20,777 nucleotides of DNA, taken from IMG/VR virus record IMGVR_UViG_3300047550_001068, positions 1 to 20,777 of that record. One strand, 5' to 3'. The notes beneath the pieces were generated by a model that saw only the letters and a program-made list of their open reading frames with translations, searched no databases and was not told where the DNA came from. Below, piece after piece: positions 13,916-20,777 of the stretch (position 1 is its first letter; each line of letters opens with the position of its first letter). Source of the DNA: a virus. Made by a program: the position numbers and the translations under genes.

Positions 13916-14803
13916 CTAGTATATTGTACCATGCTTAAAGTTAAGACCAAGGTATCTGCCATACATCTCTAAGCTTCTTTTATTGCCCATCCATGTGCTA
14001 TATGTAGGATCTTTGTCATAATTGGATAATAGTGACTTTATTGTAGCTACAGATATTTCCTCAAGCTTAGATGTTTCTTGTGGATATGTCTCCCAGCAAG
14101 GTATCCTGCTTGAGTTTATACCATATAAATGAAATACTACGGGAATGTCTGGAGCTATTAAATTATAACCATGTGTATAAAAAGATGCAGCCCTTAAAAA
14201 CTCTTCTCCAAAATAAAATATTGAGGGATGCTGCTTAACATTATGAATCTCTCCCCTTCCAAAAATAAATCCAGCAGATACGGAGTCTGAGCAATATGAG
14301 GTATTGAAAGGAACCCCCTCTTGGCTCATTATTCTTTTTTCTTTAAATCTTTCAATTTCAAACCATTTTTTTATTTTAATTAATGTGGTTTCGGCATCTA
14401 AATCTAAAATCTCATTTCTTTCTTGGTCATACCAATATCCTGGCGGGTATCCTGTTAATATACAATCATTGCCTTCTTCTGTATATCTGTTTAAATTATT
14501 AATAATTATTTGATCCCAGTTTTTTCTAAATCTTGTATGAGAATCAATTTGTAAATAATAGTCTTCGTTATCATAAAGCTTATTGGCTAAATATCTAGCA
14601 ACACCAACACCCAGATTTTCTGGAGCCTTTGAATATTGTATTCTAACATTATCAATATTAAATTCTGTTTTATTTTCTATATAGCATTCATGTATGCCAA
14701 AGAATATTTCATTATCTCCAGAGCTTTGTTTTATGCAGTCTTGTACAGTCTTTGATAATTCATCATCGTTATATGATGCTATTTGAACAAATATGCTTGA
14801 CAT
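13916..14803 (-). CDS. GlcNAc-transferase-like glycosyltransferase (GT-A fold)
   Basis: A 295-residue protein from the ATG at 14803, resembling glycosyltransferases of the N-acetylglucosaminyltransferase family related to Skp1-hydroxyproline GlcNAc-transferases (Pfam GlcNAc). Family-like blocks are visible: SIFVQIASYNDDELSKTV at the N-terminus, then FFGIHEC (34-40), ENLGVGVARYLANKLYD (62-78), and the DxD-like YYLQIDSHTRFRKNWD (83-97, with D87-S-H89 taking the place of DxD). Later come SAGFIFGRGEI and EEFLRAASFYTHGYN. No signal peptide or transmembrane segment is seen, so it should act in the cytoplasm. It starts in a one-base TAATG overlap with the DUF6171-like gene. The acceptor is unknown; phage proteins or host surface glycans are candidates. 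Confidence 0.8.
   Translation of the reverse strand: MSSIFVQIASYNDDELSKTVQDCIKQSSGDNEIFFGIHECYIENKTEFNIDNVRIQYSKAPENLGVGVARYLANKLYDNEDYYLQIDSHTRFRKNWDQIIINNLNRYTEEGNDCILTGYPPGYWYDQERNEILDLDAETTLIKIKKWFEIERFKEKRIMSQEGVPFNTSYCSDSVSAGFIFGRGEIHNVKQHPSIFYFGEEFLRAASFYTHGYNLIAPDIPVVFHLYGINSSRIPCWETYPQETSKLEEISVATIKSLLSNYDKDPTYSTWMGNKRSLEMYGRYLGLNFKHGTIY
13923..13950 (-). promoter_or_regulatory. Promoter-like sequence before the coiled-coil gene
   Basis: Minus strand TTGGTC (13950-13945), a 16-base spacer and TACAAT (13928-13923), with TATACT directly behind it and then AGGAGGG. The -35 match is poor (3/6) and lies inside the glycosyltransferase gene. The predicted start would again fall at the Shine-Dalgarno. 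It may be only AT-rich coincidence. Confidence 0.22.
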
Positions 14804-15030
14804 TACCACTTACCAAGAGGGCACTTTGCTGATTCCAACTTAGTTTTGATATTCATAAAACATCCACATTTTTTACATTGCTTTGTTGCTTGAATAAGCT
14901 CAGGACATTTTAAACATGCGTCATATCTCATGTCAGATAAATCTGTTGGTGCCTGTTTGGTTCTTGGATTTAAAAGATCTAATGGAGTTACCCCATTTTT
15001 TTCTTTATATTTTTGCCAAGGAGATGACAT
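14803..15030 (-). CDS. DUF6171-like cysteine-rich small protein
   Basis: A 75-residue protein whose C-terminal half matches a widespread phage pattern (DUF6171): a RYDACLKCPELIQATKQCKK block with C39 and C42, then CGCFMNIKTKLESAKCPLGKW with C55, C57 and C70, together with C52. These six cysteines likely bind one or two zinc ions. The N-terminal half is polar (SPWQKYKEKNGVTPLDLLNP). The function of the family is unknown. Members typically occur next to virion or accessory genes in phages. It couples by one-base overlap with the glycosyltransferase gene and with the upstream hypothetical gene, giving a tight three-gene unit. Assignment to DUF6171 is from memory of the pattern, not a search. Confidence 0.75.
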   Translation of the reverse strand: MSSPWQKYKEKNGVTPLDLLNPRTKQAPTDLSDMRYDACLKCPELIQATKQCKKCGCFMNIKTKLESAKCPLGKW

Positions 15031-15458
15031 TAAAACTCTCCTGCTCTAGGATGAGATGGATGCCACGGCAGCAATCCAATTACATCACGGTTTGTTATAA
15101 TAAATTTTTCTCCGTCAAATTGTGCATTTGGAGAAATTACATATCTGCCGTAGGCATAATCTCCTAAATTTAATACTAACGGATTACTTAATAGGATGCT
15201 TCCAAAATACTCTGTTGTTTGCAATTCATTTACAATGTTTCCATCTTTAATAAATCTAACAGTTATCCCATCATGTTCTGGGTATTCGGAAGAAATATCT
15301 ATCACTTCATCACTATTAAAAAACATATCTTGATATTCTTGCCATACTGGAAGATCGTATAGGCATTGCCCATCAATGACCCAAACAATTGGGACACCCT
15401 TTACTCCATTAACAAAATCATTGCCTGGAACAAATTCTATGTGTTTATCTGTTAACAT
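15030..15458 (-). CDS. Hypothetical protein downstream of the fibre genes
   Basis: A 142-residue protein that I do not recognise. It is beta-rich with a short N-terminal region (MLTDKHIEFVPGNDFVNGVKG), a GVPIVWVIDGQCLYDLP block, an acidic middle (MFFNSDEVIDISSEYPEHDG), and a C-terminal part with VRFIKDGNIVNEL and YGRYVISPNAQFDGEKF. There is one cysteine and no signal or membrane segment. A very strong AGGAGG Shine-Dalgarno lies six bases before the ATG at 15458. The 35-base spacer after the adhesin-like gene is the longest spacer in the window and holds a promoter-like sequence. By position it could be a virion or virion-assembly protein, but this is inference only. Confidence 0.7.
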   Translation of the reverse strand: MLTDKHIEFVPGNDFVNGVKGVPIVWVIDGQCLYDLPVWQEYQDMFFNSDEVIDISSEYPEHDGITVRFIKDGNIVNELQTTEYFGSILLSNPLVLNLGDYAYGRYVISPNAQFDGEKFIITNRDVIGLLPWHPSHPRAGEF

Positions 15459-15474: not shown

Positions 15475-15503
15475 AGTATACCACATAAGAGTATTAAGCG
15501 CAA
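15475..15503 (-). promoter_or_regulatory. Sigma70-like promoter candidate in the 35-base spacer
   Basis: On the minus strand TTGCGC (15503-15498) is followed after 17 bases by TATACT (15480-15475), a 5/6 match to the -10 consensus. The -35 hexamer overlaps the end of the adhesin-like gene. The expected transcription start (about 15468) would fall inside the AGGAGG Shine-Dalgarno at 15470-15465, which is unusually close and lowers confidence. It would drive the hypothetical, DUF6171-like and glycosyltransferase genes. Confidence 0.35.
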
Positions 15504-17851
15504 CCATCTGGATAAAAACATCTATTTACGGCATTAGCACTACATGCAGCACCGCTTGAACAGAACTGAGGTCCATTATTACATCCAGTGCTTCCGCAGC
15601 AGGCAATAGCCACATCAAATGATGTACATGTTTTAAATGATCCACCAGCTGTAGTCGTAGTGGTTGTAGTGGTAGTGGTAGTCGTAGTTGTGGTTGTAGT
15701 TGTGGTTGTTGTAGTGATAAGTGACCATCTAGCATACATTGTTATATTTTGAGATGGTGGGAACCATGTAGCTCCAGCGTTTACTGAATAAGTAAAATCT
15801 AATGATGGAGTATCTCTCCAATATAAGAATGAATATCCAGATCTTGTTGGTGTTGGTGCTACAACAGATCCTCCAGCATTAAATGTACTGGAAGTAGGAG
15901 AGACTGTTCCACCATTTGCATTCCAGGTTACTGTATATGTGATTGCAGACCATTGTGCATATAATGTTATATTTGATGTTGGAGAATAAGATCCGCCTGA
16001 AGTTCCAACATATGTTCCTCCACTAGCTGCTGTATACCAGCCATTAAAGGTAAATCCAGATCTAGAGTTTGGAGTTGGTAATGTAACTGATCCTGGATAT
16101 ACTGCTGAATTTGAAGCAGTAGGTCCAGATCCTCCATTGTAATTATAAGAAACAGTGTATGTATTACCAGTCCATATTGCAAAAAATGTTCTACTAATTT
16201 CTGTTCCAATTGATACACCATAAGTATAGTTAGTACCTGCAGTTAAAAAATATGGATCTCCGCCACTTAATGGAGATCTCCATGTACTCAAAGCATAATG
16301 AGTTCTTGTTGCAGATGGTGCAGTAAAACTAGTTCCAACTGCTCCAGTATATGTATAAGAAGATAGCCCATTTCCAGGGCCAGAAGATAGTGTACCTCCA
16401 TTAGCGTCAAATCCAATACTAATAGGAGCACTAACAGTAATTGTAGCTGTATTTGTTTTTCCACCTGGTTCTGCAGTTACAGTAATCGTATATGTTCCAC
16501 CAGTGCTGTATGTGTGTGCGACACTCGCATTTACAGTTGATGTATTTGAAGCAATTGCCCCAGAAGAATAATTTGATGTGCCATCTCCCCAGTTTATTAT
16601 ATAACTAGTAGGATAGTGACTGATATTAAATGTAAAATTATTTGATACTCCTTGATTTACTGTGGTTGGAGTTATTGTTCCAACAGCTACTGCTTGATCT
16701 AATGTATATGAGGTTGATAAAGCAGTTCCAATGCCACCATCTGTATTAGTTGCTTTAACTCTAACAAAAATATAATCTAATGCGTCAGAAACACTATATG
16801 TTTGTGTGTTTCCTGTATATCCAGTATTGCTTAAAGCTCCACTTACGTAGTCTTCTTTATACCAGTCATATGCGTATGTTGTAGTACCAGAAACATTACT
16901 CCATGTTCCTTGCGTTGCAGTTAACGTTGTACTTACTGGTAAAAATCCTCTGTTATTTAATGGGCCAATAGTTGGCGCAACAGTATTAACTGGAGAAGCA
17001 GAAATAGTATTAAAGTATTCATCATCTGATAGTTTATTAGGAGTAGCAGTAGATTTCCATCCATCATTTGCAACCACTTCTATAATTGCATAATATAGTG
17101 TTGAAGGGCTTATATTAACTGAATCTGATACAGTAGTAGTAGTTGTTCCTGGCGCTATTGATACTGTCTTTTTTATTGTACCTGTTGGGCCAGTTAACCT
17201 TATTGTTAAAGTTTGACTGTCTATAAATGTAGAATCAGCAACTCCTCCAACTGTCCAAGAAAAAGTTCCACCACGATCTGTGGGAGTTACTGTTAAAGCA
17301 CTAACAGTAAATGATATTCTAGACAAAACTCTACTGGCTGTTTGAAAATCGTAGTTGGTTGATCCTACAGTATTTGCATCGTTATTGACCCGCACTTCTC
17401 CAACTAAATAATAACCAGCTTTTGCATCTGCATCTGTCAAAGAATATGTAAGTGTGGTAGAAGATGTTGAATTAGCTCCAGTATAATTTGCTGATGCTAC
17501 AACAATCCAATTCGTATCATTTAAAGTAAGAGATGAATCTGTTCCTTTGTAAATTCTCATTCTATATGTAGTATCTGAATCTGCTGTGGTATTTGTATAT
17601 GCACCCCTAGTAAGAGTTAAGGTATCTCCACCATAAAAATTAGTTGTAGATGATACCTGATTTGTAAGTGTTGGAGATGTTGTAGCAGATGGAGCATCTA
17701 TGCTGCCAAATACTTTTGCTAATGTTCCATTAGAATTTAGCCTATAAATAGTTTTTAACTTTGCCAGAGTACCATTAGAATTAACTCTATATATTGCTTT
17801 TAGTCTTGCTAACGTACCGTTAGAATTTATCCTATACCAATTAGCTGCCAT
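15494..17851 (-). CDS. Adhesin-like virion protein with InlB-type repeats, poly-threonine and cysteine-rich end
   Basis: A 785-residue mosaic protein, probably on the virion surface. In order: three 15-residue repeats with the core YRxNSNGTLA (6-50); beta-rich, threonine-rich Ig-like regions (about 55-385); a PKD-like domain with NWGDGTS (420-426) and HTYSTGGTYTITVTA (about 390-475); three InlB B-repeats (Listeria-Bacteroides type, about 476-560, 563-636 and 638-710) with signatures FDANGGTL, GWYTAASGGTY, ITLYAQW and ITMYARW; 22 consecutive threonines (713-734); and a 51-residue end with eight cysteines (TC, ACC, GC, FC, AC, RC, GC). No signal peptide or membrane segment is seen, so it would reach the surface in the particle. 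It starts one base after the fibre gene's stop, so the two are likely made together as fibre-type proteins. Confidence 0.82.
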   Translation of the reverse strand: MAANWYRINSNGTLARLKAIYRVNSNGTLAKLKTIYRLNSNGTLAKVFGSIDAPSATTSPTLTNQVSSTTNFYGGDTLTLTRGAYTNTTADSDTTYRMRIYKGTDSSLTLNDTNWIVVASANYTGANSTSSTTLTYSLTDADAKAGYYLVGEVRVNNDANTVGSTNYDFQTASRVLSRISFTVSALTVTPTDRGGTFSWTVGGVADSTFIDSQTLTIRLTGPTGTIKKTVSIAPGTTTTTVSDSVNISPSTLYYAIIEVVANDGWKSTATPNKLSDDEYFNTISASPVNTVAPTIGPLNNRGFLPVSTTLTATQGTWSNVSGTTTYAYDWYKEDYVSGALSNTGYTGNTQTYSVSDALDYIFVRVKATNTDGGIGTALSTSYTLDQAVAVGTITPTTVNQGVSNNFTFNISHYPTSYIINWGDGTSNYSSGAIASNTSTVNASVAHTYSTGGTYTITVTAEPGGKTNTATITVSAPISIGFDANGGTLSSGPGNGLSSYTYTGAVGTSFTAPSATRTHYALSTWRSPLSGGDPYFLTAGTNYTYGVSIGTEISRTFFAIWTGNTYTVSYNYNGGSGPTASNSAVYPGSVTLPTPNSRSGFTFNGWYTAASGGTYVGTSGGSYSPTSNITLYAQWSAITYTVTWNANGGTVSPTSSTFNAGGSVVAPTPTRSGYSFLYWRDTPSLDFTYSVNAGATWFPPSQNITMYARWSLITTTTTTTTTTTTTTTTTTTTTTAGGSFKTCTSFDVAIACCGSTGCNNGPQFCSSGAACSANAVNRCFYPDGCA
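15497..15637 (-). other. Cysteine-rich C-terminal cap of the adhesin-like protein
   Basis: The last 47 residues after the AGGS linker contain eight cysteines, spaced as TC, ACC, GC, FC, AC, RC and GC, together with glycine- and asparagine-rich loops (GSTGCNNGPQFCSSGAAC). The even number would allow four disulfides once the protein is outside the reducing cytoplasm; metal binding is the alternative. It has no similarity to the preceding beta-repeat domains and looks like a separate, exposed module at the tip of the threonine linker. Confidence 0.7.
15650..15715 (-). repeat. Poly-threonine tract: 22 consecutive Thr codons
   Basis: Twenty-two uninterrupted threonine codons (residues 713-734) between the last InlB-type repeat and the cysteine-rich end. 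The codons are mixed: 8 ACT, 7 ACA, 5 ACC and 2 ACG by my count. It is therefore not a simple one-triplet microsatellite; the amino acid, not the DNA, is conserved. It probably serves as an extended linker, and a hydroxyl-rich stretch of this kind is also a possible O-glycosylation site. A glycosyltransferase gene lies three genes downstream. Confidence 0.92.
17702..17836 (-). repeat. Three tandem 45-base (15-residue) repeats at the start of the adhesin-like protein
   Basis: Residues 6-50 of the adhesin-like protein consist of three copies of a 15-residue unit with core YRxNSNGTLA(R/K)(L/V). The period is exactly 45 bases with no insertions. The DNA copies differ at many third positions (for example GGT/GGA for the glycine and ACG/ACT/ACA for the threonine) while the peptide core is kept, so the repeat is maintained at protein level. 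It is the first structure after the start codon, which is where fibres normally carry their virion-attachment segment. Confidence 0.85.
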
Positions 17852-17852
17852 A

Positions 17853-20777
17853 TCATTCTCTCACCATAATAACATCTCCAGATTTTACTGTTATTGGGCT
17901 ACCCCCTTGATAAGCAAAATTTCCCTGTTGTTTGCCAGCATGTACCCCAGTTCCCCAGCTAGTTATGCTTGCGTTAGTTGGAGTAACTCCTGCGTTATAT
18001 ATAAATCTTCTTCCTAGAGTCATTTTACCAGATGTATTAATTGTTATTGTTGGATCTCCCGCAAAGTTATTGTTATCGCTTTCTAAAGTAGAATCTCCAA
18101 AATTAGAAAATTGAATTTCTCCACCATTTAATGTAAGAGTTGTTGCAGTTCCTGACAATAGTCCACCAGCAAAACTAAAATTACCTGTTGAAGTCATTGT
18201 TGTTGCAGTAATATTTCCATTAATTACAGCACCAACAGCATTTAATATACCACCCCTTGTTATATAAAAATTAGGTGTTTGTCCATCTACACCAGCTTCA
18301 AAAATATTAACTGTTCCACTACCAGAACCAGTTAAATCTGTTCCAAATCTTACACGGTAATTAGTAGATACATCTATTACACCAGTTATAGATATTCTTT
18401 TATCTGTTGAATGTAAAATAAATTGCTCTGATCTATCTCTTATAGATGTGTCATTTACTACCCACCCACCTATTAATGCAGCCTTAGTAAAAAATGTAAT
18501 GGCTGTAGGCAATGAGCCAACTGCTGGATTGTCACCAATTGGAATGTTTCCAGAACTTATTGGTGTATTTACAATTGCAGTTAATGTATTGTTTGTTGAA
18601 CCTATAGACGCTAATCCTTTATCATTAATAATAACACTAGTGTTTGTTGGGCTTGTTCCAGTATAAAATGATCCAGACTCTACCTGGAAATTGCCAGTAA
18701 TTTTTCCAGAGGAGGCCTCTATTGCGCCTTGTAAATTTACACTAGATGCAGTAAGTTGTCCAGATGCATTAACATGAAATCCATTAGGTGCCGCTGGACC
18801 AACATCTAAAGTTCCACCAGATATTTGTGCAGAACTTGCATATAACTTTCCAGTTCTATCCACAGCAAACTGTGTGGCATCTCCTCCAGCAGATGTGCTT
18901 CCAGACCAAAATTTATAAAATCCTGTAGACGATAGTCCAGCATATTTGGTAGTTGTTGGATCTAATTTTTCTATTTTAGTAGTATGAATTACCCAATCTG
19001 CTATATTTCCATTATTTGCAGTTATGGCTCCATTGGTTGTATCAAGAGATACTTGGTTAGTACCCTTACGAATTAAAAGCCCATCTTTGTTAAAAATAAA
19101 TCCATCGCCTGTAAGATTTCCTGGACTTGTTGTAACATCACCGCTATAGATAGATGCTCCTGATGTAGTTAATGCAATATTTCCTGAGAATGATCCGCCT
19201 CTTGCGGTTATATCTCCGTCTACGGTAAACTTAGTGCCATTCCAAAGAAGATAGTTGCTTGTTGATCCGCCAACCTTTAGTCTTGCACTATCTGATGCAT
19301 TTAAGAACCAATAATTGCTATCATCAAAAAATAATCCACGCTTTGTTCCAGTTATTCCAGTTGTATTGGTTGGATCTACCCCTTGGCCAAATTGAAAATT
19401 ACCAGCAGTTATATAGTCAGTTATTGCTGGTGTACCAGATATTGCTGTGTCTGTAAAAGAGACATAGCTAGATGAGGTATTATTATATTCATCATAAGTA
19501 GCAATTGCCAATTTATATGTTGCACCAACAGCTAAACCTGCAAGCTTATATGACAATGTGCCAGTTGGTGGGTTAGTCTGATCAATAGGATAATCGACAT
19601 ATGAATAAACTGGATTTGTTGTATCTGTAGTAAATCTAATTCTATATCCACGAAGGGTAGTATCTGATACTGCTGTCCATGTTAAATTTATATACCCATT
19701 AAAACCTAAAGTTCCAGAAGTATCTATTCCGCTAGTTGGAGTATTAACAGTTGATACATCTCCAGGACCAGATATGTCTACTGTGACTGGAGAAAGTGGG
19801 ACAACAATCTGTTCTGCAGAATAATTTGAAGGATTTTCAAAATCATCATAATATCTAACAAGCAAATATGTATTTTGATATAGAGTAGAAGATATATTTG
19901 CTGGGCTTGTTCCAGAATATACTATTCCATATCCTGTTATTGATCCAGATACCTGTGCTGTAAAATTATTGTTAACTGTTATTTGATTTCCAGATACTGC
20001 CGTAATGTAGGTATTTTCTGGAATACCAGTTCCAATAACTATAAACCCAGTTAGTGGAGTTACAGAAACACCTTTATTAGAAAGAACATTTGATAATGTT
20101 ACAGTATTGGTTCCAGATGCTCCCCCAGAAGCATAGGTTCCAGTAAATGAATCGTATGGAGTTACTCCAGACCACGAAGTATATTTTTGATAAACCTCTG
20201 CATAAACAGCACCTGCTGGTAACGTATAGGATACGCTATATCCATTTACAAGAGCTGTAGTTGTAAAAGTTGGAGTAATACCTAAAAGAGGGTTAGCTCT
20301 TTGTGCAACAGTAAATGCAATACCGTTAGACTTATTATCTGCTGCATCAATACTTTTAAATACGCCAGTATATGACGAGTAGTGAGATCCAAACTGTGTA
20401 AATAGGTCTGCTTTAGTTATAGTATATGTTTGATTAAGAGATGTTCCAGATGGGAATGCATAGAAGTATCCAACAGAAGAGTTTGGTGCTGTTAATGCTA
20501 CCTGAAATCTTATTCCAGCATCTGTTGATGGCAAGGTATAGCTAACTACTATGTTATCACCTGACCATGCTGCTGAAACAGAGGAAACTTCTGATGGAGG
20601 AATAAGGTCTACTGATATTGGGTTAGTAGGGGTTACCTTTACAGCGTTTGAATAAGATCCGTATAAGCCAGATTTGCTTGTATATCTTGCTTTAACCCAA
20701 CGTGCATCTGTTGTTGGAGTAATGATATTTGCTGGCTTTATATCACTTAAATATACTTGCTGATATCCAGTTGTTGG
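17853..20777 (-). CDS. Large tail fibre or tip-attachment protein (partial, N-terminus beyond window)
   Basis: The frame is open from the stop at 17853 to the window edge: 974 visible residues. A TTG at 20534 would give an 893-residue version, but it is internal, because the frame continues upstream without a stop and encodes a fibronectin-like domain (DARWVKARYTSKSGLYGSYS, then SVSAAWSGDNIVVSYTLP). Fibronectin type III-like domains continue through the first half (for example YKLAIATYDEYNNTSS). They are followed by a tail-specific segment with LKVGGSTSNYLLWNGTKF and TVDGDITARGGSFSGNI. Then come repeated GG and NxxG turns (ISGGTLDVG, GKITGNFQVESGSF, GGILNAVGAVINGNITATT), typical of phage tail proteins with a beta-helical or host-specificity region. 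The C-terminus is GSPITVKSGDVIMVRE. It probably contacts the host. Confidence 0.85.
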   Translation of the reverse strand, partial: PTTGYQQVYLSDIKPANIITPTTDARWVKARYTSKSGLYGSYSNAVKVTPTNPISVDLIPPSEVSSVSAAWSGDNIVVSYTLPSTDAGIRFQVALTAPNSSVGYFYAFPSGTSLNQTYTITKADLFTQFGSHYSSYTGVFKSIDAADNKSNGIAFTVAQRANPLLGITPTFTTTALVNGYSVSYTLPAGAVYAEVYQKYTSWSGVTPYDSFTGTYASGGASGTNTVTLSNVLSNKGVSVTPLTGFIVIGTGIPENTYITAVSGNQITVNNNFTAQVSGSITGYGIVYSGTSPANISSTLYQNTYLLVRYYDDFENPSNYSAEQIVVPLSPVTVDISGPGDVSTVNTPTSGIDTSGTLGFNGYINLTWTAVSDTTLRGYRIRFTTDTTNPVYSYVDYPIDQTNPPTGTLSYKLAGLAVGATYKLAIATYDEYNNTSSSYVSFTDTAISGTPAITDYITAGNFQFGQGVDPTNTTGITGTKRGLFFDDSNYWFLNASDSARLKVGGSTSNYLLWNGTKFTVDGDITARGGSFSGNIALTTSGASIYSGDVTTSPGNLTGDGFIFNKDGLLIRKGTNQVSLDTTNGAITANNGNIADWVIHTTKIEKLDPTTTKYAGLSSTGFYKFWSGSTSAGGDATQFAVDRTGKLYASSAQISGGTLDVGPAAPNGFHVNASGQLTASSVNLQGAIEASSGKITGNFQVESGSFYTGTSPTNTSVIINDKGLASIGSTNNTLTAIVNTPISSGNIPIGDNPAVGSLPTAITFFTKAALIGGWVVNDTSIRDRSEQFILHSTDKRISITGVIDVSTNYRVRFGTDLTGSGSGTVNIFEAGVDGQTPNFYITRGGILNAVGAVINGNITATTMTSTGNFSFAGGLLSGTATTLTLNGGEIQFSNFGDSTLESDNNNFAGDPTITINTSGKMTLGRRFIYNAGVTPTNASITSWGTGVHAGKQQGNFAYQGGSPITVKSGDVIMVRE

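Follow-up and report, generated by a model that had tools for sequence, protein, structure and literature searches.

Glycosyltransferase genes and glycosylated structural proteins are found in mycobacteriophages, in which virion glycosylation concerns the capsid and tail-tube proteins. These phages are actinophages, as the virus examined here probably is; in contrast to them, the locus described below combines a tail-region stalk carrying a Cys-rich tip with a glycosyltransferase of family GT60 and, in relatives, an alternative hydroxylase route. The chlorella virus PBCV-1 encodes a prolyl 4-hydroxylase, and prolyl 4-hydroxylases are among the PDB matches of OxA, an oxygenase family of the related loci. 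However, PBCV-1 is a eukaryotic algal virus, and we know of no linked stalk-and-tip module in it. According to a personal note in a review, hydroxyproline was not detected in PBCV-1 particles.

GT60 enzymes transfer α-GlcNAc onto Thr of Trypanosoma cruzi mucins, as assayed with the acceptor KPPTTTTTTTTKPP (PMC3769586, PMC9472816), and onto a hydroxyproline of Skp1 that a 2OG prolyl hydroxylase generates (PMC6939170). The T. cruzi mucins, on whose Thr TcOGNT acts, have a poly-Thr or Thr/Pro stalk like the proteins described here, and the glycosyltransferase belongs to the same Pfam/CAZy family (PMC3769586, PMC9472816). However, they are GPI-anchored proteins of a eukaryote and are modified in the Golgi, whereas here the protein is of phage origin, is made in the bacterial cytoplasm, and has a terminal Cys tip, with the glycosyltransferase activity being putative. 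In the Skp1 pathway (PhyA and Gnt1, the latter of GT60), the two enzymes work in series in the cytoplasm (PMC6939170), which is mirrored by those loci in this study that have both enzymes beside (PT)n stalks. Unlike the single, regulatory Pro modified in Skp1, the stalks here consist of extended repeats within a protein presumed to be structural, and the locus on which this study centers has no 2OG gene. The two GT60 acceptors thus appear to match two situations found here, a Thr stalk with GT60 and a Pro/Thr stalk with a 2OG enzyme, in some loci together with GT60.

Collagen-like phage tail fibres also contain repetitive extended segments and have been discussed in connection with prolyl hydroxylase, and aquatic viruses encode abundant prolyl hydroxylases, whose use was described as cryptic (PMC9301287). 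The stalks listed in this study differ from such fibres in having no Gly-X-Y repeats. Our search of open-licence papers found none linking phage prolyl hydroxylases or glycosyltransferases to a stalk-and-tip module and nothing relevant on polythreonine in combination with phages.

The stalk protein and its neighbouring genes

The window, i.e., the whole stretch of DNA analysed, is a 20,777-b fragment of a virus record (Table 1). The closest relatives of its DnaE (54.6% identity) and terminase (57.3%) belong to Streptomyces phages of approximately 130 kb; therefore, the host is probably an actinobacterium. The virus is a freshwater one. Because fibre-like genes precede the stalk gene in relatives, the stalk gene is likely located in the tail region of this actinophage.

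Table 1 Features of the stalk locus in the window.
Feature	Position	Strand	Remarks
GT60-type glycosyltransferase (PF11397)	13916..14809	-	E 9e-43; 147.5 bits (curated cut-off 21)
DUF6171-like 75-aa Cys-rich protein	14803..15030	-	Adjoins the 142-aa neighbour
Conserved 142-aa neighbour	15030..15458	-	AlphaFold pLDDT 87; two beta-beta-alpha-beta repeats
785-aa stalk protein, whole ORF	15494..17851	-	Pfam Flg_new (three matches) and PKD match
Cys-rich tip (AGGS + 47 residues, 8 Cys)	15497..15649	-	
Stalk (22 Thr, all four codons)	15650..15715	-	Residues 713-734
Flg_new (Listeria-Bacteroides) repeat, best of three in the body	15953..16159	-	Pfam; residues 565-633
PKD domain in the body	16433..16672	-	Residues 394-473; 23.5 bits, equal to the curated cut-off of PF00801
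Three N-terminal repeats of ~15 residues each (YRxNSNGTLAKxK)	17715..17836	-	
Fibre-like protein encoded upstream, truncated at the record end	17853..20777	-	Weak fn3 match; structural context only

The initial annotation had described a run of 22 Thr encoded by all four codons, followed by AGGS and a 47-residue end with eight Cys. Re-reading of the sequence confirmed every part of this description: the tract uses ACT eight, ACA seven, ACC five, and ACG two times, AGGS lies at 15638–15649, and the end lies at 15497–15637 with Cys codons starting at 15626, 15599, 15596, 15581, 15560, 15542, 15518, and 15500. All Cys residues of the protein are confined to this end, with none in the remaining 734 residues. 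At the DNA level, the Thr tract is only loosely periodic (best period 15, 80% match). The protein is mucin-like in that it has a long Thr/Pro-rich tandem segment beside Cys-rich domains, and a PHROGs search gave no match for it.

The 142-aa neighbour had no match in the PDB fold search, in PHROGs, or by tblastn against 50,697 phage records. A weak sequence match to TNFSF18 (E 0.014) was judged to be due to chance. When cellular genome contigs were scanned, a single MAG contig was obtained; thus, this gene is nearly absent from cellular genomes. The 75-aa gene followed the 142-aa gene in 52 of the 52 loci with enough sequence. Its product in the window matched phrog_13558 (1e-16) and scored 23.5 bits (E 7e-5) against Pfam DUF6171, which is below the cut-off of 27, and it is therefore named only DUF6171-like. 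We propose that the 142-aa protein is a tip chaperone or tip partner, and together with the DUF6171-like protein it may help to make or mount the tip.

In the putative GT60 enzyme, an acidic, active-site-like D-x-H motif, which may be catalytic, is invariant or nearly so among the phage copies. PF11397 gave no match in 14 control genomes, and the GT60 profile gave none in the PDB.

Exchange of tips and stalks among related loci

A scan of IMG/VR with the 51 tip residues showed that the tip also ends a (PT)n protein and a (PPVV)n protein, both encoded just upstream of the same 142-aa and DUF6171-like genes as in the window, while tblastn with the tip alone against the 50,697 phage records gave no match. 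Scans anchored on the 142-aa gene provided 84 usable loci (56 after dereplication), of which 55 were readable before this gene; L107 was read by hand, and L066 was too near the contig end. In 55/55, the gene before the 142-aa gene ended in a Cys-rich tip, usually of 32–48 residues. BLAST showed that the window protein is similar over its whole length only to that of L117 (54%) and has Flg_new-type repeats in common with the proteins of L083, L085, and L088. With the proteins of all other loci, it shared the tip alone (approximately residues 739–785), with identity up to 89% in the (PT)n protein of L069; since this identity covers 44 residues and the rest of that protein is unrelated, a chance origin of the tip was dismissed. 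L117 has a T21 stalk and the GT60 closest to that of the window (64%) but a different tip (43%). The restriction of similarity to the tip in most loci indicates that tips, stalks, and bodies recombine. The tip is therefore a genuine module, passed among phage proteins that are otherwise unrelated, as had been suggested. The additional suggestion that it specifically follows poly-Thr was rejected, because the stalks of most relatives are Pro-rich or of other kinds, including the (PT)n and (PPVV)n stalks mentioned above.

Below the tip, the stalks were swapped wholesale and included T22, (PT)n, (PPVV)n, (PV)n, (TTTTAAP)n, (PPVFT)n, (PPFFP)n, and (PPVYYA)n, among others. The stalk class changed at least 16 times on the tree of the 142-aa neighbour and the DUF6171-like protein, and stalk length differed even among near-identical phages. 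Poly-Thr is one stalk type among several. Because the sequence is freely replaced and the length is variable, these observations suggest that the feature kept in the stalk is a chemistry matched to the adjoining GT60 or 2OG enzymes.

The positions of Cys were conserved among homologues of the tip, with C16 and C44 of A5 invariant. The number of Cys per tip was 4, 6, 8, or 10 in 54/55 tips, with L111 counted anew over its final 42 residues; only the truncated tip of L085 deviated. It was also even in 36/40 sequence-unrelated tips in a wider, DUF6171-anchored set, and binomial p-values for these counts are too small owing to shared ancestry among tips. Since Cys residues were lost and gained in pairs across unrelated tips, the tip probably contains disulfides, and the even counts agree with its earlier description as a disulfide-type cap. 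AlphaFold modelled the tip with medium confidence only (pLDDT 72), and a PDB fold search with this model gave no match.

Relative to L083 (L083:3028-6984), an internal deletion has removed half of the tip of L085 (L085:3175-6984). It fuses the PPVT stalk to the mid-part of the tip, where three Cys remain; either the tip is broken in a phage that is near-identical in other respects, or the repeat was assembled wrongly. At L002:5194-6135, a second, different Cys-rich island was found between two (PT)n runs, so that stalks can carry several Cys beads besides the tip.

Stalk composition and neighbouring enzymes

The enzymes of the related loci are encoded two or three genes downstream of the stalk gene. 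OxA matches PF13640 with an HxD...H motif, and in the PDB its nearest sequences are those of prolyl 4-hydroxylases (E 2e-11). OxB is assigned to the 2OG enzymes solely on the basis of an HxD...H-like (His-x-Asp...His) pattern; it had no match in Pfam or the PDB, and profile comparison found OxA and OxB not to be alike. No PF13640 oxygenase was found in the window record.

We compared stalk composition with the enzymes present within 2.6 kb in 52 dereplicated loci, using a cut-off of 30% that was set after the data had been seen; the results hold at 0.25–0.35. All loci are metagenomic fragments, in which a missing enzyme is weak evidence. Among the 18 stalks with Thr + Tyr ≥30% and Pro <30%, GT60 was found in 17 and 2OG enzymes in none. 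Conversely, 2OG enzymes were found at 21 of the 25 loci with Pro ≥30% and Thr + Tyr <30% (18 with 2OG only and 3 with both), and the other four had neither. Mixed stalks were accompanied by GT60 in four loci, by 2OG in one, and by both in two. Fisher tests associated Thr/Tyr ≥30% with GT60 ([[23,4],[2,23]], p 1e-8) and Pro ≥30% with 2OG ([[20,0],[8,24]], p 3e-8), and the association of Pro was retained when the verified P4H-like OxA family only was counted (p 5e-6). Pairs of loci sharing no branch on the tree of the neighbour and DUF6171-like proteins supported the Pro–2OG association by about 8:0 (p 0.008) and the Thr/Tyr–GT60 association by about 7.5:0.1, for which the sign test gave 0.07 as rounded by the script, while 8:0 would give 0.008. 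Bootstrap trees gave the same result. Restriction to strongly supported branches left 4–5 pairs, all or nearly all as expected and too few for significance.

At L119, the tip follows an ordinary domain without a low-complexity stalk, and neither enzyme is present. No local enzyme was found beside the Pro/Phe-rich stalks of L078, L079, L082, L110, and L122. The Thr/Ser stalk of L050 (L050:1460-3470) is accompanied by a sugar epimerase-like gene and a GT11 fucosyltransferase-like gene, both recognized by eye, and not by GT60. In L040:2993-4963 and L102:2-559, Tyr-rich stalks (PPVYYA and YHAP) with almost no Thr have GT60 alongside; a simple rule that GT60 needs Thr was therefore relaxed, and these loci hint at glycosylation of tyrosine. 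Three loci with PPFFP stalks (L106, L120, and L121) encode consecutive OxA-family oxygenases, five to seven per locus. On the contig of L070, the (PPVV)n locus L003:1334-5019 contains a radical SAM gene, three 2OG-like genes, and, as judged by eye, a gene resembling glycosyltransferase family 61.

A proposed tail appendage and alternative explanations

We consider it reasonably probable that the stalk protein forms a mucin-like appendage of the tail, with disulfides in its tip and a stalk modified by phage enzymes. A folded body of Flg_new and PKD repeats would bear an extended low-complexity stalk, at whose far end a small, disulfide-knotted tip would be exposed on the virion. The tip would be the conserved and modular part, and the stalk would be replaceable provided that it presents a side chain modifiable by the phage enzymes. 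For the T22 stalk of the window, we propose that the GT60 enzyme encoded nearby O-glycosylates Thr, with GlcNAc as the probable sugar, because the two known acceptors of GT60 seem to fit the situations found here. In relatives with Pro-rich stalks, 2OG oxygenases would hydroxylate prolines; when encoded alongside, GT60 would glycosylate the hydroxyprolines or Thr. Such modification may make the stalk stiffer, protect it, and keep the tip at a distance from the tail.

GT60 and the 2OG enzymes might instead act on host envelope glycans, DNA, or metabolites, with their genes lying in a recombination hot spot and matching the stalk only indirectly. Phage glycosyltransferases are usually explained as modifiers of DNA or the cell wall, including those of Nanopelagicales phages E7 and F5 (PMC10202952); many viral loci with GT60 have no such stalk nearby, so that this enzyme is not exclusive to the system described here; and the sugar epimerase and radical SAM genes of the cassette would fit another substrate. 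However, this explanation, which we regard as unlikely, does not account for the independent pairs in which Thr-only stalks occur without 2OG enzymes and Pro-only stalks nearly always with them, nor for the absence of both enzymes from the stalk-less L119. The variable length of the stalk among near-identical phages and its wildly varying sequence among relatives would also suit an unmodified spacer, for which any flexible low-complexity repeat would serve and whose Thr-richness here would come from slippage and drift. Against such a spacer, stalk composition is predictive of the adjacent enzymes, many of the repeats are rich in Pro, Phe, or Tyr, unlike typical Gly/Ser spacers, and all four Thr codons are mixed, which makes it distinctly improbable.

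For the tip, the initial annotation had offered metal binding as an alternative, and zinc or iron in place of disulfides would suit a Cys-rich tip that is made in a reducing cytoplasm and flanked by a Cys-rich, DUF6171-like small protein. Nevertheless, the window tip contains no His, the tips have neither fixed CxxC pairs nor a fixed set of four Cys, their Cys number varies from 4 to 10 in steps of two, and no metal-binding fold was found in the PDB with the medium-confidence model. A metal-binding tip is thus very improbable. Simple-repeat regions assemble poorly, and the Thr tract could on these grounds be an artefact of assembly or slippage. This is hardly credible, as the codons are mixed, the open frame runs into the conserved tip, and the independent relative L117 has a pure Thr tract on the same kind of body.

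Beyond the window, the reading as a modified appendage can be extended, tentatively and with somewhat less than even confidence, to many aquatic phages: these may possess a cytoplasmic mucin-like modification, consisting of prolyl hydroxylation and GT60, that is dedicated to exchangeable tail stalks, with each stalk exchanged along with its enzymes in a matched set, whereas the Cys tip, neighbour gene, and DUF6171-like gene are retained. If true, this would give a function to many abundant, unexplained phage prolyl hydroxylases and GT60 glycosyltransferases, and phages would use the same acceptor chemistries, Thr and hydroxyproline, as the eukaryotic GT60 pathways. The match between stalk and enzyme offers a specific, testable substrate, namely, the low-complexity stalk encoded two or three places upstream.

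DUF6171-anchored loci number at least 596 in IMG/VR. GT60- and DUF6171-anchored scans also yielded loci without the 142-aa gene, 65 of which had enough flank; many of them were picked by the GT60 scan, and this biased sample serves as supporting evidence only. A low-complexity stalk was encoded just upstream of the DUF6171-like gene in 44/65, mostly with Cys tips unrelated to that of the window. By eye, several of the loci scored as having no stalk contain a Cys-tipped fibre with a short stalk, together with a small protein (FAFVVDGEV...SSDPKV...GWTYDGENF) that seems to be a single-repeat relative of the 142-aa neighbour. Among the DUF6171-anchored loci without the 142-aa gene, Pro was associated with 2OG (p 3e-4), and the association of Thr/Tyr with GT60 was weak (p 0.058).

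In four stalk or fibre proteins of DUF6171 loci (L133:1254-4247, L134:793-3708, L137:2710-5229, and L244:1335-2699), a C-terminal domain that looks like a Hint/intein type (DWFFVSGILIHNK) replaces the Cys tip. In the cyanophages Synechococcus phage S-IOM18 (L124:5649-6925) and Sf-FS3 (L125:4381-7335), DUF6171-like genes adjoin thioredoxin-like and 2OG oxygenase genes, and that of S-IOM18 is also located just after fibre genes and a gene for a Cys-containing 316-aa protein. The arrangement in both cyanophages resembles the freshwater cassette.
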